A DNA stretch of 33,959 nucleotides from Clostridiaceae bacterium (lineage in GTDB: Bacteria; Bacillota; Clostridia; Saccharofermentanales; Saccharofermentanaceae), in contig JAAYCT010000006.1 in NCBI GenBank assembly GCA_012729635.1, forward strand, positions 1 to 33,959, given 5' to 3'. Below, piece after piece: positions 20,208 through 33,959 of the stretch. Made by a program: the position numbers and the translations under genes. Position 1 is the stretch's first letter; every line of letters starts with the position of its first letter. Under the pieces are notes generated by a model. That model saw only the letters and a program-made list of their open reading frames with translations, was not told the DNA's origin and searched no databases.

Positions 20208-20466
20208 TCTCTTTTCTCCTCATATGCATATGATTATCGTAATTTTCGAAAAAAACAATAGCATACGGACATCGCGACATGATTACACAACAGTACACCG
20301 CATTGATGATATTTTCGGTCTCCCTGCGATATTCATAAAGACGCATCACGGCTTTCGCTCCTATATTGTTGCACAAGGCCTTTTTTCTGCTGAACATGTT
20401 TTTTATCGACGAATCGTATATAATAAATATTGACCTTTTTGTTATCGATCAGCTGAGGTGGATGTC
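20208..20466. other. Divergent intergenic region between the MFS gene and the two-component system
   Basis: This 259-base gap holds the leader of both divergent units. On the plus strand a perfect TATAAT is at 20419-20424 with only a weak -35 before it, about 43 bases upstream of the response regulator ATG. On the minus strand I see only a weak CTATTG-17-GATAAT pair upstream of the MFS gene. A short palindrome CATATGCATATG lies next to the MFS ribosome binding site. No RNA gene or ORF is evident. Confidence 0.4.
20419..20424 (+). promoter_or_regulatory. -10 element of the two-component operon
   Basis: TATAAT is a perfect -10 hexamer 43 bases before the response regulator start. The -35 region is weak (ATGTTT-like), which suits a regulated promoter. 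Confidence 0.5.
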
Positions 20467-21156
20467 ATGTCAACGAATCCGCACATATTGATTTGCGACG
20501 ACGACCCGGTCGTTCACGAATCTCTTGGATTGTATCTTGAGAACGAGCACTATTCCTATTCGAGCGCTTTCGACGGGAAAGAGGCATTGACGCGCGCTGT
20601 TTCGGATAAGCCCGATTTGATCATTTTGGACTTGATGATGCCCGAAAAACCGGGGATTGATGTTTGTCGGGAAATCCGTAAAACACTGTCAACCCCGATT
20701 ATTATCCTGACGGCAAAGGGAGAAGAAATCGATCGTGTACTCGGACTTGAGCTGGGTGCCGATGACTATATCGTAAAACCGTTTTCGCCGCGTGAGGTAA
20801 TCGCGCGAATCAAAGCCGTTCTCAGACGAATCAACGAGCCGCAGGAGAACGCTCCCGTTCTCCGCTTCGAGGGGCTCGAGATCAATATCGACAATTATCA
20901 GGTAAAAGTAAAGGGCGAGCTGGTTCCGTGCACCCCCAAAGAGGTGGAGATTCTTCATATGTTGGCCTCCCATGCCGGTCAGGTGATGGATCGGGAGCAA
21001 ATTCTTTCCATGGTATGGGGCTACGATTATTTCGGCGACACGCGTACGGTTGATACTCACATTAAACGAATTCGCCAGAAGGTTTCGTATGAAGATGCAC
21101 CATGGTCGCTGGTCACCGTTTACGGCGTCGGGTACAAATTCGAGGTTGCTTCTTAA
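20467..21156 (+). CDS. OmpR/PhoB-family response regulator
   Basis: This 229-residue DNA-binding regulator has a receiver domain at 1-120 with acidic pocket D11-D12, phosphoacceptor D55 (IILDLMMP) and K104 (IVKPF), then a winged helix at about 130-228 (PKEVEILHMLASHAGQVM, DTHIKRIRQKV). I chose the ATG at 20467 because GAGG lies 8 bases upstream; an in-frame GTG at 20458 overlaps that site. The stop overlaps the kinase ATG (TAATG), so the two are coupled. It should regulate genes in response to its partner kinase; targets unknown. Confidence 0.93.
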   Translation: MSTNPHILICDDDPVVHESLGLYLENEHYSYSSAFDGKEALTRAVSDKPDLIILDLMMPEKPGIDVCREIRKTLSTPIIILTAKGEEIDRVLGLELGADDYIVKPFSPREVIARIKAVLRRINEPQENAPVLRFEGLEINIDNYQVKVKGELVPCTPKEVEILHMLASHAGQVMDREQILSMVWGYDYFGDTRTVDTHIKRIRQKVSYEDAPWSLVTVYGVGYKFEVAS

Positions 21157-22958
21157 TGTTTCGAAGCATTTTTCTGCGCAGAATTTTGTTGATGGTTCTC
21201 GTTTCTCTGGTCGTATCGGGTGTTTTTTCCGCCGCACTGTTTTTTCTGGCTTCCATACGTTCGGTTTCGGATCGTGCCATTGACGAGTCGATCCGACGAG
21301 CAAATCTTCTTTCCGATTATTTCAGTCGATATCCGGAAGAAATGCATTCGGTAACCAATAATGAATCCGAATTTCTCTTGGATGAAAGCTTTTCGGGTTC
21401 CTATGTTCTCATTTACGATAAAAACGCGATTCTTTTACGACAAACATCCGAAATCGATTCCAAGGACACGGAAATCCTCGCACCGGTCAAAAATCATGCA
21501 ATCGACAATCTGCTGACCCGCCAGCCCGGTGCCTCCCTGTTTGATATTATTCCGAATCGAGGGGTTTTTGATCAAATCATTGTCGTCCAGATCCCGATCG
21601 TATCCAAAGGAACCATGATCGGTTATGTGATTGTCGGCACGCCCACCCGGGATTCATCGGAAATGCTGACGGACTTCGTGCAGATTATGCTTCTTTCGAC
21701 ATTTGTCGCTTCACTTGCAATGTTGATGCCCGTATATTTCGGAACGATGCGGCTTGTTCGTCCTCTTCGAAAGGTGAATGAGGTTGCAAGAGCCATGGGA
21801 CAAGGAGATTTTTCCATGCGCGCCGATCCCTCCGTGCGAGGCGAAGTCGGAGAATTGGCTCAATCATTCAATGATCTGGCGGAACGCCTTTCACGTTCAA
21901 TCACCGATTTAACGAGAGAAAGAAACCGACTCCGTGAAATTTTCGACGTCATTTCGGAAGGCATCGTATCGGTCGATACAGAACTTCGGACTGTATACTC
22001 GAACCCGGCGATTTCCACGCTTTTTGAAAATGCAAGCTCTCGAAATCTCTTTACGGAGCGTCTTCAAGTCATTCCGTTTGAGGAAGTATGGGACGATTTC
22101 ACAAAATGTGTCTCCGAAGGAACCACCGTCGAACGAACGATTGAGGATAAGGATAATGCATATCTCTCAACGATCGTTCCGACCTTTGACAATGAAGGAA
22201 AAATTGCCGGAGCAACCGGATTTTTCAGAGATATTTCCGAATCCGAGCGACTCGAACAAACGCGACGCGACTACGTTGCGAATGTTTCGCACGAGCTGAG
22301 AACTCCGCTGACCGCACTCAGAGGATTGGTTGAGCCTCTCGCGGACGGCATGGTTAAAAACGAAAAGGACAGGACCCGTTATTACGGCATCATTCTGCAC
22401 GAGACGATGCGACTTTCCCGTCTGATCGATGACATGCTTGAACTTTCCAGACTTCAGGCCAGAACGCTTGCATTCAAAACCTTCCCGTTTGATTTGAATG
22501 TTCTTCTTTCCGAAATTGAGACCAAATTCAAACCGGTTATGAAAGAAGCCCATCTCTCGTTTCGAGTCGAATACAAAACCGGTGTTCTACCGACGGTCAT
22601 GGGAAATCCGGATCGAGTGGAGCAGATTCTGGTCATTCTGATGGATAACGCAAAAAAATACACTGCCGGCGGCGGGTCAATCACCATATCAACCGAATAC
22701 AGTGAAGAAACCGATAAGGTTATGGTTTCCGTGATTGATACGGGTCAGGGAATTCATGAATATGATATCGATCATATATTTGACCGTTTCTACAAAGCAG
22801 ACCGCGCTCGCGGAAAGAAAGGAACCGGATTGGGCCTTTCGATCGCTAAGGAGTTACTTTCTTACATGGGCGAGACCATTTCGGTTTCAAGCATCTACGG
22901 CGAAGGCACCACGTTTATGTTTACATTGACCCGCGTTCGCGGAACCATGTGGTATTAG
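21156..22958 (+). CDS. Sensor histidine kinase, PhoR/ResE-like
   Basis: This 600-residue membrane kinase has a first membrane helix at about 9-33, an extracytoplasmic sensor region at about 34-172 (GSYVLIYDKNAILLR suggests a PAS-like fold), a second helix at about 174-198, a HAMP domain to about 252, a cytoplasmic PAS at about 258-362, the HisKA domain with H379 (NVSHELRTPL), and the ATPase domain with N-box DNAKKY at about 497-502, G1 DTGQGI and G2 GTGLGL. It should phosphorylate the adjacent regulator. The ligand is not evident. The gene overlaps the regulator stop by one base. Confidence 0.94.
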   Translation: MFRSIFLRRILLMVLVSLVVSGVFSAALFFLASIRSVSDRAIDESIRRANLLSDYFSRYPEEMHSVTNNESEFLLDESFSGSYVLIYDKNAILLRQTSEIDSKDTEILAPVKNHAIDNLLTRQPGASLFDIIPNRGVFDQIIVVQIPIVSKGTMIGYVIVGTPTRDSSEMLTDFVQIMLLSTFVASLAMLMPVYFGTMRLVRPLRKVNEVARAMGQGDFSMRADPSVRGEVGELAQSFNDLAERLSRSITDLTRERNRLREIFDVISEGIVSVDTELRTVYSNPAISTLFENASSRNLFTERLQVIPFEEVWDDFTKCVSEGTTVERTIEDKDNAYLSTIVPTFDNEGKIAGATGFFRDISESERLEQTRRDYVANVSHELRTPLTALRGLVEPLADGMVKNEKDRTRYYGIILHETMRLSRLIDDMLELSRLQARTLAFKTFPFDLNVLLSEIETKFKPVMKEAHLSFRVEYKTGVLPTVMGNPDRVEQILVILMDNAKKYTAGGGSITISTEYSEETDKVMVSVIDTGQGIHEYDIDHIFDRFYKADRARGKKGTGLGLSIAKELLSYMGETISVSSIYGEGTTFMFTLTRVRGTMWY

Positions 22959-22963
22959 CGCTC

Positions 22964-23761
22964 ATGATGGATGCATCCGACGAAAATAATAAAAACGAAA
23001 TGCGAATCAATCGATATATTGCCGCCGCGGGCGTTTGCTCGAGAAGAAAAGCGGATGAGATGATCGCGTCGGGCGAGGTAACCATCGACGGAAAAGTCGC
23101 GGTTACCGGCCAAAAGATAACCCTGGGGCAAGAGTTGCTCGTCCGGGGCAAGGCGGTTCATCTTCAACGGGATTACGTATATCTCCTCCTGAACAAACCT
23201 CGCGGCATCACTTGTACCGCCTCGCGGAAGGATCCGGATAATGTAATTGATTTTCTTTCGTTCGAACACCGCGTTTTTCCGGTCGGTCGACTCGATAAAC
23301 TTTCGACCGGATTGCTTCTTCTTACCAATGACGGAGAAACCGCGCATTTAATTCTTCGAACCGACGGATTCCATGAAAAAGAATATCGGGTCCGTGTCGA
23401 CCGTCCGGTCGATGATCATTTCATCCGCTTAATGTCAACGGGAATCCCGATTCTTGAAAAAGTTACTTTGCCTTGTTTTGTCGAGAAAACGGGAGACCGG
23501 ACATTTACGATTATTCTGACTCAGGGCTTAAACCGACAAATACGCAGGATGTGCGAGTATTTGGGATATCGGGTCATGAGCCTGCAAAGAACCCGAATCA
23601 TGAACCTTGAAATCGGAGATCTTCCGGTCGGGAAATGGCGTTATCTTACTCCCGAAGAAATAGCGGAACTTAAATCGGCTCTTGATCGGGCATCACCGGG
23701 TACAAAACAAACGTCCCCCGATAGCAACGAAGTTTCCCGGAGCGATAATCGCTCTTGTTGA
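22964..23761 (+). CDS. rluF: RluF-like 23S rRNA pseudouridine synthase
   Basis: This protein of 265 residues has an N-terminal S4 RNA-binding domain at about 13-60 (NRYIAAAGVCSRRKADEMI) and the RsuA/RluB-type catalytic core with GRLDKLSTGLLLL, the aspartate being the nucleophile. The segments HEKEYRVRVDRPV, GLNRQIRRMCE and RTRIMN match RluF, which makes pseudouridine 2604 of 23S rRNA in E. coli, better than RluB. It starts 5 bases after the kinase stop; the Shine-Dalgarno site is weak and the ATG at 22967 or the GTG at 22949 are alternatives. The last 92 bases overlap the convergent LacZ-like gene, and the residues after about 235 are not conserved. Confidence 0.87.
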   Translation: MMDASDENNKNEMRINRYIAAAGVCSRRKADEMIASGEVTIDGKVAVTGQKITLGQELLVRGKAVHLQRDYVYLLLNKPRGITCTASRKDPDNVIDFLSFEHRVFPVGRLDKLSTGLLLLTNDGETAHLILRTDGFHEKEYRVRVDRPVDDHFIRLMSTGIPILEKVTLPCFVEKTGDRTFTIILTQGLNRQIRRMCEYLGYRVMSLQRTRIMNLEIGDLPVGKWRYLTPEEIAELKSALDRASPGTKQTSPDSNEVSRSDNRSC

Positions 23762-26678
23762 CCGATACACCCCGGGGGGCCTCATACTCAAAATCAAGAA
23801 AAAGATTCGCCCCCTCGGGTGTCGGAAGTTGCTCATCGTGCCGACTGTCGTCGATAACATCCGGATGATACGGCGTCGCAGCAAAGGAAAAATCGCTTCC
23901 GTCCGCTCGCCGAATCAATAGTGAAGTATTGTCCTTCGAAACCACTTCCGTCATCTTTACGGCCCGGATTACTCCGTTTTCCGAGGGACGCGCATAATGA
24001 TGAAATAATGCTTCACTTCTTGACTCGAAAAGCCCGAAGGAATCTCCCGGTTGTGCGTAATCTCCGATGAATCCGCTTTCATTTCCCACCCAACGAAAAC
24101 GGTTTGACATGAAAGGAACCTTGAACCGAAACCCATAACGGGGCGGCTTCACCCTGGAAAATAACGATAGTGTTATCTCTGCCCTTCCGTCGGAGAAAAA
24201 CCGATAGATTGCCTCCATCGGCCGACACAACGACCGACAAGTGTATTGCGCATGAAAGACGCAGACGCCCTCTTCGTCCCGGTACGATAATTTCTCCAGG
24301 CGAATTCGGCTTTGTATCTGTCGCCATGTCCTTTTCCCGCACAATCTTCGGGGTCTTACATACACCGGGGGATAACGGCGTTCATCATTTGTTGATGCTC
24401 TGTAGAGAAACGGCTCCGAAAATTCAGCGAAAATCTTTGCATCGCCGATGGAATAGTCCGAAATACCGCCGCTTGTTTTGTTGATTACCGCGGTTACGGC
24501 ACCGAACGAAACGATGTACTCGTCTCCTTCTTCCCTTACTTGTCTCGATTCGTTTTTGTCACGCAACTCTATTTTTTCGAAGTACTCGCCAGAATGCTCC
24601 GACAACCGTTTTCGAAACGATGCTTCCACATAGCCCTTTCGCGCCCAGGCATGATCTTTAACCGGGTAGATTTTCATATCCATTTGAATATTCGGCGGAA
24701 GCTGCGGCTTTTCAACATTCGAGGCATCGAGCAGAAAGTCCCCGATTATTTCCGGCCGAAAACCGAGTTTTATCTCCCGCTCCGACCCGGGCGACAACGA
24801 CCCGATGGCTGCGATTCCGGATACTAAATCATTCATTCCTGCCCGTATCGTCCATCTTGCTTCCAACTCCTCGGAAAACCCATGAAGGTCCGTGTTTACG
24901 ATAACCGGAGAAGAAGGATCTTCGGGAGAGATGGCCGCGAGTATCGTCTCGCAACGCTTTCGGATCGATTCGTATTCCGGATGCGGATTCCGTTCGGCAT
25001 CGACAATGCCTTGGGCAATCGCAATCTCTGAGCTCTTTTTTCCGGATGATAAATCTGCTTGATGAATGTAGCGGAAATTCCGTTTCTCTTTTTTTGCCAC
25101 CAATTTCTGGTATTCGGTTTGTGGATGCTCCGGATCGAACTGTGTCAAAAGAAACTGCCGATCCAGACAAATATCCTGCCACTCGCCGAAAAGAGTGCCG
25201 CAACCTTCTCCGAAGGGATCAACGCCGGAAAAAAGACCGGTATCGACGGAAAGGCAGTAAATCAGGTCGGTCCCGCTCTCGGCACCGAAAACCTCGCGAA
25301 TCTCACGTATCTTCGGTTCATCCTTCGAGTGAATCTTTGCGGACCAAACGATTACACACGGGTGCGTTCGAAAAGATATGATCGATGAATACGGATCGGA
25401 AGGATCAATCGGACAAATCACATAGATACCGTACCGGTCACACAGATCGAAAAACTGCGGATCGGCCGGGAAATATGTCATCAGAACGGTATTTAAGTGC
25501 GCTCTTTTCATCAATAGGATATCCCGAAGCATTTGCTCAGGCGGGACCGCTATTGCACCCCTCGGATCAAACATGAAGTATCGGGAAGCTTTCAGCGGAA
25601 CAAACGCATCATTTATAAATACCTTACCGTCAACTTCTTTTACGCAACGAAATCCGATCTTTCTTTTTTGGACGCCGAGAACTCGACCGGAATAGTCTTT
25701 GACAATGACAACGAGATCGTACAAAGAAGGCGTCGAATGAGACCACGGAGAAACGTCGCGGGCCAAAAGCTTGCACTGTATCATTGTCGTTGACATTGCT
25801 TCGATCGTCCCTTCGCAAGCATCCGATGTCCGTAACCGAATCTCCGGAAGGTTATAGATGTCGTATTCGTCAACGGCACGGATCAGCTTATATTCCAATT
25901 GAAAAGGGACGGAAATATCCGTGTGATTGAATAGACTCGTTTTGACGTATAAGGTCGCGTCCTTTCCGTATTCGGATCCGGTCCATTCACTTTGAACGGA
26001 AAGGGACCGAATCTCAAGCAAAGCATCCGCTATGATTGAGACCGAACGGAATATTCCGCTGAATCCGAGCGTTCCGCCCTCTATTTTCCCGATTCCGCCG
26101 ACAACGGAATGAAAGCGATACACCAAAATCGTAATCAGATTATCTCCCGAGCGGATATGCTTTGAAAGGGGGATTTTCTTCGGGGAGAATACCGGATCGG
26201 AAGACAGTGCTTTTTCACCGTTTATGTATACATCAAACCGTCCGCATATTCCGCTGATGAAAAGAAAAATCGAACGATCCAGATAATATTCCGGTATCTT
26301 AACCCACGTACGATATACACCGACATCATCATCCTTATACGCAGAGGACAGAGCCGCCATTCTTCTTTTCAGAAATCCCTGATCGGACCGGTCTCTTGAG
26401 AATTCCCGGTCGTATTGAAGAAACGGTGCAGGGCCGTAGCCGAGCTGTTGCCAAACCGATGGAATGCGAATCCGGCTCCAATCGGGAAAATTCACGTTTT
26501 CCTCCGCAAAACCGATCGGCACCAAATCGCGATTGTCCGCATGGAAAAAGGACCACTCCGATAATTCAAAGCGCCAGGGAGAAGAAGCATATCCGAATTC
26601 CGGATATCTTCGATTCTCGTAAATTTCGTCCACATGAGAATACGGTGTGCATTGATCCGGGCAGTTGATCATTTCCAT
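23670..26678 (-). CDS. LacZ-like glycoside hydrolase family 2 protein with apparently lost active site
   Basis: This 1002-residue protein spans the whole LacZ architecture: sugar-binding jelly-roll domain (about 30-220), beta domain, TIM barrel (about 345-580), a further beta domain and the C-terminal beta-small domain (about 720-995; YRASTNDER, PSENGVIRAV and EGANLFLDFEYEAP are recognisable). Family 2 beta-galactosidases hydrolyse lactose-type beta-galactosides. Against E. coli LacZ by eye, the catalytic and contact residues are all changed: SLGNES (E461) is SAKIHS at 446-451, NRHEHHP is SRYFMFDP at 365-372, CSHYPN is LMTYFP at 399-404, EANIETHG is PIDPSDP, and no CEYAHAMGN (E537) exists. 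The barrel is about 35 residues shorter. The frame is intact, so it may be a pseudoenzyme. GGAGG lies 5 bases before the ATG at 26678. No signal peptide. Confidence 0.8.
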   Translation of the reverse strand: MEMINCPDQCTPYSHVDEIYENRRYPEFGYASSPWRFELSEWSFFHADNRDLVPIGFAEENVNFPDWSRIRIPSVWQQLGYGPAPFLQYDREFSRDRSDQGFLKRRMAALSSAYKDDDVGVYRTWVKIPEYYLDRSIFLFISGICGRFDVYINGEKALSSDPVFSPKKIPLSKHIRSGDNLITILVYRFHSVVGGIGKIEGGTLGFSGIFRSVSIIADALLEIRSLSVQSEWTGSEYGKDATLYVKTSLFNHTDISVPFQLEYKLIRAVDEYDIYNLPEIRLRTSDACEGTIEAMSTTMIQCKLLARDVSPWSHSTPSLYDLVVIVKDYSGRVLGVQKRKIGFRCVKEVDGKVFINDAFVPLKASRYFMFDPRGAIAVPPEQMLRDILLMKRAHLNTVLMTYFPADPQFFDLCDRYGIYVICPIDPSDPYSSIISFRTHPCVIVWSAKIHSKDEPKIREIREVFGAESGTDLIYCLSVDTGLFSGVDPFGEGCGTLFGEWQDICLDRQFLLTQFDPEHPQTEYQKLVAKKEKRNFRYIHQADLSSGKKSSEIAIAQGIVDAERNPHPEYESIRKRCETILAAISPEDPSSPVIVNTDLHGFSEELEARWTIRAGMNDLVSGIAAIGSLSPGSEREIKLGFRPEIIGDFLLDASNVEKPQLPPNIQMDMKIYPVKDHAWARKGYVEASFRKRLSEHSGEYFEKIELRDKNESRQVREEGDEYIVSFGAVTAVINKTSGGISDYSIGDAKIFAEFSEPFLYRASTNDERRYPPVYVRPRRLCGKRTWRQIQSRIRLEKLSYRDEEGVCVFHAQYTCRSLCRPMEAIYRFFSDGRAEITLSLFSRVKPPRYGFRFKVPFMSNRFRWVGNESGFIGDYAQPGDSFGLFESRSEALFHHYARPSENGVIRAVKMTEVVSKDNTSLLIRRADGSDFSFAATPYHPDVIDDSRHDEQLPTPEGANLFLDFEYEAPRGVSVNKSDYRSGKLRCYRGTFVLYPVMPDQEPI

Positions 26679-26804
26679 ACAAGCCTCCGACGGTACAACA
26701 TCCGCTTGAAACTACAAATATTTTACCATCCCTTTTTTCCCCGCATGTGTCATTATGATTAAAGTTGTCTTCCAAGTGTACCCGCCGACTGATTGTCCCT
26801 TTTT

Positions 26805-26857: not shown

Positions 26858-28996
26858 TCAGAAAATGCTGTACGTGAGGAACAACGTTGCCATAATGGAA
26901 GCAACCAACGAAACCACAGTAACCTGCGTATTGATCGAAGGTCCGGCGGTATCCTTGTAGGGATCCCCGACGGTATCTCCGACAACGGCGGACTTATGAG
27001 CATCCGATCCTTTTCCGCCGTTTTTCCCGGATTCGATGTATTTCTTGGCATTGTCCCAAAGTCCTCCGGCATTCGACATAAATAATGCCAGAAGAAGACC
27101 GCTGACGATATTTCCCGCAAGGAAACCGCCGACCGCCTGGACACCGCCGATGAAGCCGACCAACAAGGTCGCGAAAATCGCAACGAGACCCGCCGGAACC
27201 AGTTCCTTCAGCGCGCCGGTCGTAGCAATATCAATACATTTATCATACTCGGGAACAACACCCTTTTTGCCTTCTTTAAGACCGACAATGTTATCAAACT
27301 GACGATGAATCTCCGCGACCATCCTCTGCGCATTTCGATCGACACCGAGCATCAGCATCGCAGAAAAAACAGCGGGAACCGAAGCTCCGACCAAAAGCCC
27401 GAAGAAGACGACTGGGTTCAGAATGTCAAAGCCGGTAAGCATCTCAACCCCTTGAATGCCGGCGTCGATCGCCGCTTGAGCCGCGACATTGACCTCCGAC
27501 ATAAATGCACCCAACAAAGCGATAATCGTTAATCCGGCCGCTCCGATTGCGAACCCTTTGGTAACGGCCTTGACCGTATTCCCGGCACTGTCGAGCGAAT
27601 CGGTAATATCAAGCGCCTCTTTCCCGAGCCCGCCCATTTCAACAAGTCCGCGCGCATTGTCTACGATCGGGCCGTATGCGTCGTTGGAGATGACCATTCC
27701 TACGATGGAAAGCATTCCGACCGCGGCCATCGCGATACCGAACATTCCGGAAATCGCATCGTTCATAATCGGCTCGCAAATCTTATACGCGGCCAACGCC
27801 GAAATCGCGATACCGATCATCGGAGGAAAAACACTCAGGAAACCATAGGATGTTCCGGACAGAATCGTAAATGCAGGTCCGCTCTTGGACGCGTCCGCAA
27901 CGTATTTAACCGGAGGCTTGGTATCGTTGGTAAAATAATCGCTGACAATACCGATAATGGTGCCGACGAAAAGTCCGACCATCATGGCGCCCCAGACTCT
28001 CCATCCGGCTTCATCGTTAAAAAAAAGAAAGGAGGCAAGTGCCGTTAATCCGGCAAAAAGTGCCGTTGTGATGTATGTGCTCAGATTGAGAGCCTTGGTC
28101 GGCCCGCCCTTTTTCCCCATACGTGCCATCAGGACACCGATTATGGAAGACAACAATCCGATTGCGCCATAGAAAATAACCATGATCGCAAAATGATCCA
28201 TCTTATAATTATCCGCACTTGCGCTCAGGGCAACGGCCATAACCAAAGCGGCACTGATTGAAGCGACATGCGAATCGAAAAGATCCGCACCCATGCCCGC
28301 GACATCGCCTACGTTATCACCGACGTTATCCGCAATAACGGCGGGGTTGCGAGGGTCGTCTTCGGGAATACCGAGTTCAACTTTACCGACGAGATCCGCG
28401 CTGATATCGGCGGTCTTCGTAAAGATACCTCCTCCGGCTTTCGCAAAAAGCGCCAGGCTTGACGCACCGAATGAGAATCCCAAAACAGAGCTTACATCGT
28501 TTGTCAGAAGATACACCAAAGATACACCCATCAGGCTCGTTCCGACAACGGCCATCCCCATGACGGCTCCGCCTCTGAATCCGGCCAGGAACGAGGGACG
28601 AATGCCCTTGGTCGCCGCTTCCGCGGCCTTCATATTCGCTATGGTCGCTACCGCGATGCCTACCTTACCGGCAAGGGCCGATAAAACCGTTCCGCAAATA
28701 TAGGAAATCATCATGGTGACATTCGTTTCCCATGACCAGTCTCCGATCGGATCTCCCCAAATCGGATGCGGAAGAAATAAAAGGATCAGAACAGCGGCAC
28801 ATCCGGCAAAAATGGAAAGAAGCAGATACTCTTTTTTGAGAAAAGTATTGGCGCCCTTCTTGATAAAACCACCGACACGTGCAATCTCAGCGTTTGACGA
28901 CGGTTGTTTCTTCACCCAGAAGAAAAAGTACAGTGCGACCAGAAATGCGAGGATCGACACCGCAACCGAAATAATGACAGCTACTTGGATGTTCAT
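26858..28996 (-). CDS. hppA: Membrane-bound pyrophosphatase, K+-independent proton-pumping type
   Basis: This 712-residue enzyme couples pyrophosphate hydrolysis to ion pumping through about sixteen membrane helices. The substrate-binding acidic segment ADISADLVGKVE (197-208), the ADNVGDNVGDVAGMGAD run at 222-238 and the late SNDAYGPIVDNARG at 437-450 are typical. K476 and T479 in GNTVKAVTKG carry the signature of the K+-independent subclass (K+-dependent enzymes have alanine there). Known Na+-pumping members are all K+-dependent, so proton pumping is inferred. I chose the ATG at 28996 because AAGGAG lies 9 bases upstream; an in-frame ATG 21 bases earlier overlaps it. Confidence 0.96.
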   Translation of the reverse strand: MNIQVAVIISVAVSILAFLVALYFFFWVKKQPSSNAEIARVGGFIKKGANTFLKKEYLLLSIFAGCAAVLILLFLPHPIWGDPIGDWSWETNVTMMISYICGTVLSALAGKVGIAVATIANMKAAEAATKGIRPSFLAGFRGGAVMGMAVVGTSLMGVSLVYLLTNDVSSVLGFSFGASSLALFAKAGGGIFTKTADISADLVGKVELGIPEDDPRNPAVIADNVGDNVGDVAGMGADLFDSHVASISAALVMAVALSASADNYKMDHFAIMVIFYGAIGLLSSIIGVLMARMGKKGGPTKALNLSTYITTALFAGLTALASFLFFNDEAGWRVWGAMMVGLFVGTIIGIVSDYFTNDTKPPVKYVADASKSGPAFTILSGTSYGFLSVFPPMIGIAISALAAYKICEPIMNDAISGMFGIAMAAVGMLSIVGMVISNDAYGPIVDNARGLVEMGGLGKEALDITDSLDSAGNTVKAVTKGFAIGAAGLTIIALLGAFMSEVNVAAQAAIDAGIQGVEMLTGFDILNPVVFFGLLVGASVPAVFSAMLMLGVDRNAQRMVAEIHRQFDNIVGLKEGKKGVVPEYDKCIDIATTGALKELVPAGLVAIFATLLVGFIGGVQAVGGFLAGNIVSGLLLALFMSNAGGLWDNAKKYIESGKNGGKGSDAHKSAVVGDTVGDPYKDTAGPSINTQVTVVSLVASIMATLFLTYSIF

Positions 28997-29091
28997 CTTT
29001 ATACACTCCTTTTTCATTATCTAAAAATGAGAAAAATGTCATATTTCTTGATGAAACACACATGCTCCCCATTTTCGAATATCTAAAGAAT

Positions 29092-29263: not shown

Positions 29264-29373
29264 CTTGTGACTTATCTTAGCGCCGTTCTCCGTAAGCGGT
29301 ATTTTCGGTCACAAGGCCATCCGAGGATGGGCGTTTTTCGGGTGACGGAGTCCGAATCGGACTAAGCTCCGTC
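29264..29373 (-). ncRNA. Structured 3' region, unassigned
   Basis: Between the fibronectin lipoprotein stop and its terminator, three further pairings are visible: CTTGTGAC (29264-29271) with GTCACAAG (29308-29315); CCATC with GATGG (29317-29330); and GACGGAG (29344-29350) with CTCCGTC (29367-29373) enclosing GTCCG-AAT-CGGAC. The first encloses the smaller CCG-TAAG-CGG. I do not recognise a known riboswitch or RNA family. It overlaps the stop codon of the lipoprotein gene. Confidence 0.35.
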
Positions 29374-30678
29374 AACTGACGTTTCCGTCGGTGTCGTCTC
29401 GGGTATCGGTGTCGGTGTCGGCTCGGGTATCGGTGTCGGCGTCGGCTCGGGTGCGGTTATCGTAATGGTGACCGCGTTCCCGGCGAGTTTATCGCCGTCA
29501 TTATACAGCGCCGTGACACTGAAGTAATACGTGCCGGGTTCAAGTTCTGAAAGAGGCACAAGACAGGTCGTCTGATTCGGATTCGTGATGTATGTGTAGT
29601 AGCCGTCTCCCGGATACGCAGGGTTCGGATTGGTTGCCGAAAATACCACCTTGTATCCTTGGAATCCCGAGACTGTGATTTTGTTCCATGAAACCAGAAC
29701 TCCGTCAGACTGAAGTGTTGCCGAAACGACCGGAGCGACATGCGGTTCGGTAACCGCGGGCTCACCGGGCATCGTCTTTCTGACTGCGTTTCCGGCTACC
29801 TTCTGCCATTCGTCTCCGTATACGGCAGTTACGCTGAAGTAGTACTGTTCTCCGCCGGAGAATGTTCCGATGTCTCCGCCGGAATATCCGTCTCCGTTAT
29901 AGATCTTGCAGGAAGTAACATCGGCATCCGTGATCCAGCTGTAATAACCGTCTCCGGGGTACGCCGGATTCGACTGGCTCTTTGAAGCAACAACTTTATA
30001 ACCGACCAAATCATCGCTGGTGATTTTCTTCCATGAAACCTTCACATAGTTATCTCCGGTGCTTACGGAAACCTGCGGCTTCGGACGATCCGTTTCCGGT
30101 ACTGTCGTCGGTGCAACATATTCCGGCATCGTTCTCTTAACGGCATTCCCGGGGACAGCGGATCCGTCCTCATAAAGTGCCGTTACACTGAAATAATAAT
30201 CGCCCGCACTGATTTTCGAGGAAGCCTTAACCAGGCAGGAAGTCGTATCCCGATTTGTTATGTAAGTATAGTATCCGTCACCGGGGTACTGAGGATTGGG
30301 ATTGGTCTTTGAATATACGACCTTGTATCCGGACAAATCCTCATCCGTGATTTTCTCCCAGGATACCATAACGCCGTCTGCTCTCGAAACGGCAGATACC
30401 ACCGGAACGGTATGCCGGACCTCTGTTTCGGTCGGCTCCTGTGTCGGTTCCGTTTCAATCGGTTCCGATTGCGTCGGCTCCGTCGAGTCCGTCTCGGAGA
30501 CGGAAGTCTCATCGGTTGTTCCGACTTCTTCGAGGATTTCATCGATACTTGAGGCATTGCATTGGAGACGAAGCAGTCCTTCTTCGTCTAACTTGTAGTT
30601 TTTCTGACAGGCCGGAAGTACCAGCGAGAAAACTACCAGTACTGACAGAATGAGTACGGATAATCGTTTTGTTTTCAT
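29362..30678 (-). CDS. Lipoprotein with three fibronectin-III-like repeats
   Basis: This 438-residue protein has a signal with lipobox LPAC (C24). Residues 56-88 are a Ser/Thr/Glu/Pro linker; three fibronectin-III-like repeats follow at about 90-185, 199-303 and 314-407. Each repeat has V-S-W-K-I-T, GYKVV, NP-x-YPGDGYY and YYFSVTA-Y, with one conserved cysteine (C148, C257, C372) following the IT-x-x-x-x-T-S/T turn. The C-terminus is EPTPTPIP repeats. No catalytic motif is visible, so a surface binding or scaffold role is likely. I chose the ATG at 30678 because GAGAGG lies 6 bases upstream. It lies between the beta-glucosidase and hppA genes but has its own promoter and terminator. Confidence 0.88.
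   Translation of the reverse strand: MKTKRLSVLILSVLVVFSLVLPACQKNYKLDEEGLLRLQCNASSIDEILEEVGTTDETSVSETDSTEPTQSEPIETEPTQEPTETEVRHTVPVVSAVSRADGVMVSWEKITDEDLSGYKVVYSKTNPNPQYPGDGYYTYITNRDTTSCLVKASSKISAGDYYFSVTALYEDGSAVPGNAVKRTMPEYVAPTTVPETDRPKPQVSVSTGDNYVKVSWKKITSDDLVGYKVVASKSQSNPAYPGDGYYSWITDADVTSCKIYNGDGYSGGDIGTFSGGEQYYFSVTAVYGDEWQKVAGNAVRKTMPGEPAVTEPHVAPVVSATLQSDGVLVSWNKITVSGFQGYKVVFSATNPNPAYPGDGYYTYITNPNQTTCLVPLSELEPGTYYFSVTALYNDGDKLAGNAVTITITAPEPTPTPIPEPTPTPIPETTPTETSVDGA
29398..29451 (-). repeat. 24-bp tandem repeat encoding EPTPTPIP
   Basis: Two 24-base units (29398-29421 and 29422-29445), differing at one base, are followed by a 6-base partial third copy. They encode the Pro/Thr-rich C-terminal linker of the fibronectin lipoprotein and could vary in number by slippage. 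Confidence 0.8.
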
Positions 30679-30780
30679 CTCAAACCTCTCTTTCCTCGGG
30701 CATTTGTACGGGGGTACGCACTGAATCCCGAATGGCAGATTCACAAAATAGTCATCGAACCTACCGGTGTATTTATCTGC

Positions 30781-30945: not shown

Positions 30946-33396
30946 TCACTTCGGATTATCTTGCGGATCATTATCCTTTCTTTTCGTCGAGAGAAGTCTT
31001 TTTATTCCGTAAATCAGGTGTCCGTTCATGATGCAAAGCATGCTCTCCAAAAAATCGAAGGATATGCGTCCGCTTCCGAGATTTGCGATTCCGCGCAACG
31101 GAAGATCGTCCGTCATCGCCTCCATCATTCGAATCTGATCTTCTCTTGATTCGTTTTTATACTCTTTCATGATGGATCTTCGGATAAATCGGGCGATCAG
31201 AGATCCGAAAGCATTGTCCTCAATTTCCGATACGGTCGAATTGAGTGAATGGCTACCCTTCTTCGGATTTTCGGTCAGATGAATCGATTGCCCGTACACT
31301 TTTTCGAAATCGGCTCTCGGAATCGGCATGCCATTACCCGGAAGCTTATAGTATGCCGGGGCTTGCTCCGAATAGTCGGGAATCGGAGCACGTTTCCCGA
31401 CCGAAAGTGCGGATACCTTCCCGCATAAACGAAGATCTCTGGAAGATGCTCCGATATGAATCCCGTAGATACCGGTTTCGATTTGCCAACCGGGAAGGTT
31501 CACGTTGTAAAAGGAAAATGCGCGACCATCCAAAGAAAATGTCACCGTCTTCTTCTTTCCTTTGGGAATAAAAACCTTCGCGAATGCCCGGAGTTCCCTG
31601 ACGGGGCGGAAGAGCTTTGATTTCGGAGGGGAGACATATAACTGCACCACTTCGGCCGCATCATATTCTCCCGTGTTCCGAACATCCACCGTCACTTTAA
31701 GAGAATCGGAATCCGTGACCTTTTGACTTGCGATCACTAAATTCTCATACTCAAACTTCGAATAGGATAATCCATGGCCGAAAGGAAAAAGTACATCTGT
31801 TCCGGATGCGTCATAATAGCGATATCCGACAAATACACTCTCTCTGTACTCAACGTTACGGCGCGTCCCGTAATATCGAAAGCTGGGCGTATCCTCCATA
31901 CTCAAAGGAAAAGTCTCCGCCAGTTTCCCGCTCGGGACTTCTTCTCCGTATATCAGCGAAGGAATAACTCCTCCGCCCTCCTGCCCCGGAAGATACGCCA
32001 TAAGGACCGAGCGAACCCGTTTAATCCAGGGCATGGTCACGGGAGAGCCCGCATACAAGACGACGATCACATTCGGATTGACGGCCGCCACTTCCTCGAT
32101 CAGTCGGTTTTGTCCGGCAGGAAGATTCATATGTTTTCTGTCAAAACCCTCCGACTCATATTCATCGGGCAGTCCCGCGAATATGATGACTGCTTCTTTA
32201 TTCTGCGCGGCACGGACGGCCATTGCGATTCGTTCGGTATCCGTACCGTCACCGATCAGGGAATACCCATCCTCATAAACGAAGTTCCCACCAAACTCCT
32301 CAAATCCTTCATAGGCATTTTTCACGGAAGTCGGATTTATCCTTGAACTACCGCCTCCCTGGTACCGGGTCTCCTTGGCGAACATCCCGATCAGAGCGAT
32401 GCTCATGCTTTTTTTAAGTGGAAGGAGGTCTCCCTCATTCTTCAAAAGAACGGCGGATTCCAAAACAACCCGACCGGCTAATTTCTTATTCTCTTCATAT
32501 GGGTTTTTAGGGGGACGCGGTCTCTTTTGAGCGTTTTTTATAAGGGTCAGTATTCTCAGAACGGTTTCGTTCACCCTATCCTCGGAAAGAAGGCCGTCTT
32601 GACAAGCCTGAACGAGGATCCGGTCGTTCTCGACGGCCGGTCCGGGCATCTCAAGGTCCAGTCCCGCTTCCAGTGCTTTCACTCGATCATTCATCGCACC
32701 CCAATCGGTCACGACGACGCCCTTATAGCCCCATTCGTCCCGCAATATTTCTCTCAGAAGATGCCGGTTTTCGCAGGCATACGTTCCGTTGATCAGGTTG
32801 TATGAGCACATGATCGTCCACGGCTTTGCCTGTTTGACCACGGATTCGAATCCGGAGAGATATATTTCTCGAAAAGCTCTTTCATCAACGATCGAATCGC
32901 TGATAAAACGCGCAGTCTCTTGGTTATTTACGGCAAAATGCTTGGGAGAGGTTCCAACCCCTTTGCTTTGAACCCCCTTAATAAATGCAGTCGCCATTTC
33001 ACCCGTTAACAAAGGATCCTCGGAAATATATTCAAAATTTCTGCCGCACAGAGGGGAACGCTTAATGTTCATCGCGGGACCGAGTAAAACCGCAACATCC
33101 TGTTCTCTGCATTCATCACCGATCGCTTCGCCGATCTGACGCATCAACTTGACATCGAACGAACAGGATGAGGCACAAGCAGGCGGAAAACAAGTCGCCG
33201 GTCTGCTGCCTCCGACTCCGCGTTTCCCGACATCGGAATCCTGCTTGCGGAGTCCGTGTGGTCCGTCGGAAACCATTATGCTCGGGATATCTGCCGATTC
33301 AATCGATTTCGTTCGCCAAAAATCCGCACCGGAACACAGGGAAGCCTTTTGATCCAAAGAAAGGTCATCGATATCGCCGATTCTCTTGGTTTCCAT
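30946..33396 (-). CDS. Family 3 beta-glucosidase
   Basis: This 816-residue glycoside hydrolase cleaves terminal beta-linked glucose or related sugars. The TIM barrel (about 15-300) has the motifs SDGPHGLR, KHFAVNNQE at 152-160 and the nucleophile D231 in VVTDWGAMND. The (alpha/beta)6 domain (about 310-530) carries the SEGFDRKHMNLPAGQ segment with the likely acid/base glutamate. A fibronectin-III-like domain follows at about 590-660, and an additional helical C-terminal region of about 120 residues ends the protein. No signal peptide, so it is probably cytoplasmic and acts on imported oligosaccharides. I chose the ATG at 33396 because GGGGGG lies 6 bases upstream; the frame extends 12 codons further. 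Confidence 0.93.
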   Translation of the reverse strand: METKRIGDIDDLSLDQKASLCSGADFWRTKSIESADIPSIMVSDGPHGLRKQDSDVGKRGVGGSRPATCFPPACASSCSFDVKLMRQIGEAIGDECREQDVAVLLGPAMNIKRSPLCGRNFEYISEDPLLTGEMATAFIKGVQSKGVGTSPKHFAVNNQETARFISDSIVDERAFREIYLSGFESVVKQAKPWTIMCSYNLINGTYACENRHLLREILRDEWGYKGVVVTDWGAMNDRVKALEAGLDLEMPGPAVENDRILVQACQDGLLSEDRVNETVLRILTLIKNAQKRPRPPKNPYEENKKLAGRVVLESAVLLKNEGDLLPLKKSMSIALIGMFAKETRYQGGGSSRINPTSVKNAYEGFEEFGGNFVYEDGYSLIGDGTDTERIAMAVRAAQNKEAVIIFAGLPDEYESEGFDRKHMNLPAGQNRLIEEVAAVNPNVIVVLYAGSPVTMPWIKRVRSVLMAYLPGQEGGGVIPSLIYGEEVPSGKLAETFPLSMEDTPSFRYYGTRRNVEYRESVFVGYRYYDASGTDVLFPFGHGLSYSKFEYENLVIASQKVTDSDSLKVTVDVRNTGEYDAAEVVQLYVSPPKSKLFRPVRELRAFAKVFIPKGKKKTVTFSLDGRAFSFYNVNLPGWQIETGIYGIHIGASSRDLRLCGKVSALSVGKRAPIPDYSEQAPAYYKLPGNGMPIPRADFEKVYGQSIHLTENPKKGSHSLNSTVSEIEDNAFGSLIARFIRRSIMKEYKNESREDQIRMMEAMTDDLPLRGIANLGSGRISFDFLESMLCIMNGHLIYGIKRLLSTKRKDNDPQDNPK

Positions 33397-33434
33397 TTTC
33401 TGCCCCCCCGAAATAAAACATGAGCGCTCCACTT

Positions 33435-33576: not shown

Positions 33577-33959
33577 GGGGGCGTAATGGTTTCGACGGGG
33601 TTGTTGGGACCGAAGAAGCGGGTAGAGGATTCTCGTTGGCCTCTCTAAAAAACGGGAAAGCAAGTAATTGCAACACCTAAAACACAACTCGTAGCCGCCT
33701 AATACCGGCTGCGCATCCCTCCGCCCGATCTGCTGGGCGGGTCCGGGGTGTCAGACAGCAGACCTTACCTGTCGGCAGGTTAAATAGGTAAACGCCGCGC
33801 GATAAGCTTTGCCCGCGCGATGTACATATGAAGCTACCGGACGCGCCGGCCTGTCAGCGGGCTTGGCGACGAGGGGAATACTCCAAACACTGACTGCACC
33901 CGGAGATGCTTCGGAGGATATGATTTCGGACAGGAGTTCGACTCTCCTCGCCTCCACCA
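33577..33959 (+). ncRNA. ssrA: Transfer-messenger RNA
   Basis: This RNA rescues stalled ribosomes by acting as tRNA-Ala and then as a short mRNA. The 5' end GGGGGCG pairs with CGCCTCC before the encoded 3' ACCA, giving a 7-bp acceptor stem with one G-U pair. The conserved GTAATGGTTTCGACGGGG start and the T-arm AGGAGTTCGACTCTCCT are present. The length, 383 bases, is normal. The mRNA-like reading frame is listed separately. The gene ends exactly at the window edge and is complete. It diverges from the GH3 gene. Confidence 0.97.
33670..33702 (+). other. tmRNA proteolysis-tag reading frame
   Basis: From the likely resume codon GCA (33670), preceded by AGTAATT, the frame reads ATPKTQLVAA and ends at TAA (33700-33702); with the tRNA-borne alanine the tag would be A-ATPKTQLVAA. 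The end LVAA is hydrophobic as needed for ClpXP-type proteases, but an aromatic residue before A-L-A-A, usual in many Bacillota, is missing. The other in-frame choice from the GCA at 33660 gives a stop after six codons. Confidence 0.75.

Follow-up and report, generated by a model that had tools for sequence, protein, structure and literature searches.

We propose that one gene of the analysed window, a 33,959-nucleotide stretch of DNA, probably encodes a pseudoenzyme: a protein descended from a GH2 beta-galactosidase that has become, across a whole bacterial family, a conserved, non-hydrolytic binding protein. LacZ is among the most studied of all enzymes, and partial domain matches often earn its homologues the name beta-galactosidase. 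By such matches, a core gene of an entire bacterial family would be misnamed. A glycosidase fold of 1000 residues that has lost its catalytic half, yet stands under strong selection, would be a clear and testable case of the conversion of a bacterial enzyme into a non-enzyme. The family likewise offers a natural experiment in what a (beta/alpha) barrel is capable of when strands are missing. The new job of the protein is probably something other than cutting sugars.

The first-pass annotation of this DNA described an unbroken LacZ-like gene of 1002 codons, and that description was borne out: the minus-strand frame opens with ATG, has GGAGG five nucleotides upstream, and is homologous to LacZ over its full length (Table 1). 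Domains 1, 2 and 5 are recognised by Pfam, and profile–profile alignment with true LacZs returns an hhalign probability of 100% over 910 columns. The predicted structures of the window protein and of an orthologue both find LacZ-type enzymes as their best matches, the orthologue model with Z 32 and an rmsd of 2.8–3.2 over 870–890 residues. Domain search, profile alignment and predicted structure thus all place the five-domain LacZ architecture and fold in the window protein, which is probably cytosolic. The barrel is the exception. Of the 302 positions of the Pfam barrel model, the window protein matches only 26–76, whereas a true LacZ from this bacterial family covers 1–301. Against the NCBIfam LacZ models it scores 258.7 bits, the cut-off being 999, although the true LacZ of the family also falls below at 780 bits.

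Table 1. Features of the LacZ-like gene, its product and its neighbours, in window coordinates
Feature	Position	Strand	Remarks
Putative LacZ-like pseudoenzyme gene	23670..26678	−	1002 codons; full-length LacZ homology without catalytic residues
Shine-Dalgarno-like GGAGG	26684..26688	−	5 nt before ATG; read from sequence
LacZ domain 1 (jelly-roll), residues 1–220	26019..26678	−	SGIFR kept; N102 and D201 equivalents lost
GH2 beta-sandwich domain, residues 223–344	25647..26012	−	PF00703
Remnant (beta/alpha) barrel, residues 345–580	24939..25646	−	Strands 1–4 clear, strand 5 short, one strand corresponding to LacZ strand 8; strands 6–7 and nucleophile apparently missing
Family signature F-G-x-W-x-D-[LI]-C-x-[DN]-R, residues 497–507	25158..25190	−	Aligned with LacZ GFVWDWVDQ
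Family signature I-H-x-x-D, residues 538–542	25053..25067	−	From family alignment
LacZ domain 5 (Bgal_small_N), residues 727–963	23790..24500	−	Conserved WYGRGPGESYxDR motif lost in window copy
RluB-type pseudouridine synthase	22949..23761	+	Convergent neighbour; 92-nt 3′ overlap; conserved synteny
Response regulator and PAS/HAMP histidine kinase	20458..22958	+	Conserved synteny beside RluB
Membrane H+-pyrophosphatase	26858..29017	−	Upstream gene, same strand
GH3 glycosidase with Fn3-like domain	30946..33432	−	Orthologue directly upstream of LacZ-like gene in 24/57 loci, near in 29

The active site of LacZ has disappeared from this protein. In the window copy SLGNES has become SAKIHS, NRHEH has become SRYFMF, CSHYPN has become LMTYFP and EANIETHG has become PIDPSDP; further, QDMW is replaced by GGTL and YTNVTYP by FLQYDREF, and CEYAHAMGN is absent. 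Each of these changes had been listed from the window sequence, where it is indeed present, and the losses at these sites extend to the 94 distinct orthologous proteins that were compared. In the alignments, E461, E537, H357, H418, D201, N102 and W568 are lost in all 94, none of which carries the metal ligands. The acid/base glutamate (E461 in GNES, on barrel strand 4) is histidine in the window copy and never glutamate in the orthologues, but is present in all seven of the true LacZs compared. The catalytic residues that were checked are intact in these seven LacZs, which come from the same order. Two alignments show a deletion at the position of the nucleophile glutamate (E537 in CEYAHAMGN, on barrel strand 7) in every orthologue; in a third the position holds aspartate or asparagine, never glutamate. 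Strand 7, which would carry it, is absent from the structural model.

The LacZ-like protein lacks the Mg/Na ligands and galactose contacts of LacZ (E416, H418, D201, N102, H357, H391, W568) as a set; the equivalent of H391 is still histidine in a minority of orthologues, the window copy not among them. Positions that once touched galactose now vary between genera, with G, H, S or Y at H391, Y, K or R at E461, and D, G, K or E at N460. Profile–profile alignment located no shifted acid/base or nucleophile glutamate, and the alignment of orthologues holds no conserved carboxylate at the catalytic positions of strand 4 or strand 7. Sequencing error or a frameshift was considered as the source of these losses and rejected, because all 94 distinct orthologues, those of cultured strains among them, show the losses. 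Judged by its sequence, the window protein is not a member of the GH2 beta-galactosidases, since both catalytic carboxylates are absent.

The barrel itself has been remodelled. It had been put at about 35 residues shorter than that of LacZ; measured between shared landmarks (LacZ R333 to P615, window R344 to P567), the difference is 59. The AlphaFold model of the orthologue from strain KHP2 is confident, with mean pLDDT 85 and pTM 0.86 and values over 90 in most blocks of the barrel; it contains strands 1–4, a short strand 5 and one more strand at 523–528. In alignment A3, the last barrel strand, FGxWxD, falls on LacZ strand 8. This alignment and the model, on which the reading rests, indicate that strands 6 and 7, the latter bearing the nucleophile, have been deleted. 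Alignment methods disagree over the segment from strand 5 to strand 8, so we infer the exact extent of the deletion. Residues newly invariant in the family include Y367, W500, C504, R507, H539 and C576 in the barrel, together with L87 and Y89 in domain 1. The losses were at first thought to be limited to the barrel, which does not hold: N102 and D201 are residues of the jelly-roll, and in the window copy WYGRGPGESYxDR is lost from the C-terminal domain as well.

Of the 115 genomes in the family that contains Saccharofermentans, 113 match a profile of the altered barrel alone, with one orthologue per genome, either at full length or at contig edges. A protein search of 98 related genomes likewise returned full-length orthologues throughout the family. 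These come from Saccharofermentans and its relatives in the rumen, the hindgut, digesters and other anaerobic habitats, and include the cultured strains KHP2, YRB3002, AB4001 and YAD3003. We took 56 loci besides that of the window, plus 80 named contigs, many of which are the same records. No full-length match to the altered barrel was found outside the family in samples of 188 genomes of the order (family included) and 391 of the class; the matches there are local, reach at most 39 bits, and mostly fall on the HPSVIxWSLGNES end of ordinary GH2 enzymes. In the tree, the LacZ-like proteins form one clade with 100/100 support. We found no description of such a LacZ-like protein in the open-access literature. 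One genome of genus g2 (G147, 90% complete) keeps the regulator–kinase–RluB locus (L184 6402-10343) with no LacZ-like gene beside it, and no copy was found elsewhere in this 90%-complete assembly, so the gene may be dispensable. In another genome, G055 (L075 7847-11195), two overlapping frames make up the orthologue, which may reflect a frameshift.

Selection on the gene is strong. Across 19 pairs of close relatives, dN/dS lies between 0.032 and 0.113, close to the values for the GH3, RluB and kinase genes nearby in the same genomes, and it is lower in the barrel than in the flanks in nine of ten pairs. Taken together, comparisons across the family demonstrate, at the level of sequence, the loss of the active site, a single clade, its wide spread, and purifying selection that is strong overall and most intense on the barrel. 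The region that lost catalysis is thus the one under the tightest constraint, which speaks for a new function located in it rather than for decay. The wide occurrence of the gene, its low dN/dS and the tighter constraint on its barrel than on its flanks strongly support, for the family taken together, a selected pseudoenzyme rather than a decaying one.

The window copy counts against this view. The two known copies in its genus are only 46–49% identical, whereas the GH3 and H+-pyrophosphatase genes of the same two genomes share 73% and 91–92%; elsewhere in the family, in the pairs compared, the LacZ-like protein lies only 2–12 points below GH3. Of 174 columns that are constant in the other orthologues, the window copy differs at 49, with 32 of these in the C-terminal domain and only nine in the barrel; it also lacks the WYGRGPGESYxDR motif, which nearly all orthologues retain. 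The claim of intact flanks is therefore wrong for this copy, whose genus evolves faster, C-terminal domain included. These features would suit a gene in decay, with the active-site changes as neutral loss. Against this, both copies of the genus remain open over about 1000 codons without a stop, and the window copy retains 43 of the 52 invariant barrel columns. The loss of the active site also predates the genus, since it is common to the whole family under dN/dS of 0.03–0.11. Synonymous sites are saturated between the two copies of the genus, so the low ratios are those of the wider family. A third genome of the genus gave no match, the whole locus being missing from its assembly. We regard decay as quite improbable; on sequence comparison, constraint is relaxed or function is shifting in the window's genus.

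A different possibility is that catalysis continues at a new site in the remodelled barrel, formed by family-specific invariant residues such as W500, D502, C504, H539, D542 and C576, and that the protein acts on another bond or binds a metal. The tighter constraint on the barrel would fit, as would the 46 columns, several within the barrel, that are invariant in the family but different or lacking in true LacZ; invariant Asp, His, Cys and Trp residues there would suit a new activity too. However, no conserved carboxylate occupies the old catalytic positions on strands 4 and 7, several invariant barrel residues (H439-P440, R563, H566-P567, D386, D414) are structural and shared with LacZ, and the glutamate of the YYEFDP motif, 94% conserved in the family, is methionine in the window copy. 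We think a new enzyme unlikely, though somewhat less so than decay. A regulatory or structural subunit assembling with active LacZ, as many pseudoenzymes do with their catalytic paralogue, is far less credible than either. LacZ is a tetramer and the fold is retained, but a true full-length LacZ occurs in only one of 58 family genomes (G008) and not in that of the window, so a general role of this kind is disfavoured and the idea is largely refuted.

The reading we prefer remains the binding pseudoenzyme. In the ancestor of the Saccharofermentans family, a LacZ-type GH2 beta-galactosidase would have been converted to a non-hydrolytic protein, which has since been kept as a near-universal, single-copy, probably cytosolic gene. 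Its five-domain fold persists around a barrel that lacks the acid/base glutamate, the metal ligands and, apparently, strands 6–7 with their nucleophile. By analogy, we infer a binding role for the rebuilt barrel face, where FGxWxDxC, IHxxD and C576 may act together with L87 and Y89 from domain 1. The protein might then serve as a scaffold, a sensor or a partner-binding pseudoenzyme, as the comparison with Klotho suggests. The earlier proposal of a selected, non-catalytic role has stood for the family, but its suggested form, a site that senses or binds carbohydrate where LacZ once did, has not. Sugar binding in the old pocket is not supported by the alignments, because the contact residues are lost, their replacements vary between genera and the invariant residues lie elsewhere. 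We speculate, as a tentative idea with less than even prospects, that this core protein defines the family and that its new site (FGxWxDxC, IHxxD and the invariant cysteine) serves a new biochemical activity or the sensing of a ligand central to the family.

Among known systems, the LacZ-type GH2 beta-galactosidases (E. coli LacZ, T. maritima 6sd0, B. thetaiotaomicron 3bga/3dec) share with the LacZ-like protein their five-domain order, their fold and an alignment over the full length. The LacZ-like protein differs in the missing catalytic and metal-site residues, the apparent absence of strands 6–7, the shortened R333–P615 interval of the window copy, and signatures of its own. Klotho and beta-Klotho are GH1-like animal pseudoglycosidases, membrane receptors in which a glycosidase fold without the catalytic glutamate pair has been retained for binding. 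The analogy is one of working principle only; they belong to another GH family, and no homology is claimed. Other GH2 enzymes of the same genomes (about 790–815 aa; also a 1179-codon frame at G000:C22) have the GH2 barrel in common with the LacZ-like protein, but are shorter or otherwise built and only distantly similar to it.

The neighbourhood does not name a function. The LacZ-like gene is convergent on RluB in a synteny of RluB, kinase and regulator that is kept in about 33 of 57 loci, and in part of genus g2 it is located elsewhere. Neither GH3, nor the H+-pyrophosphatase, nor the RluB–kinase–regulator group could be named as a partner from synteny. The overlap of the LacZ-like and RluB genes at their 3′ ends spans 23670-23761, and similar overlaps occur in L024 and L028. 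In several genera an H+-pyrophosphatase gene adjoins the LacZ-like gene or is found close to it (loci L050, L054, L074, L075 and L076); that of genus g2 shares only 30–37% identity with the window's and seems to be a different type of pump in the same place. Elsewhere in the window, a minus-strand gene at 29362-30744 encodes a 460-aa lipoprotein-like protein without a Pfam match, in which three similar Fn3-like repeats can be read. Another, at 253-2496 on the minus strand, encodes a 747-aa protein that reads as an apparent fusion of IspH (LytB) and S1 RNA-binding repeats. A tmRNA gene found by ARAGORN on the plus strand (33577-33959), with the tag ATPKTQLVAA, runs to the contig end.
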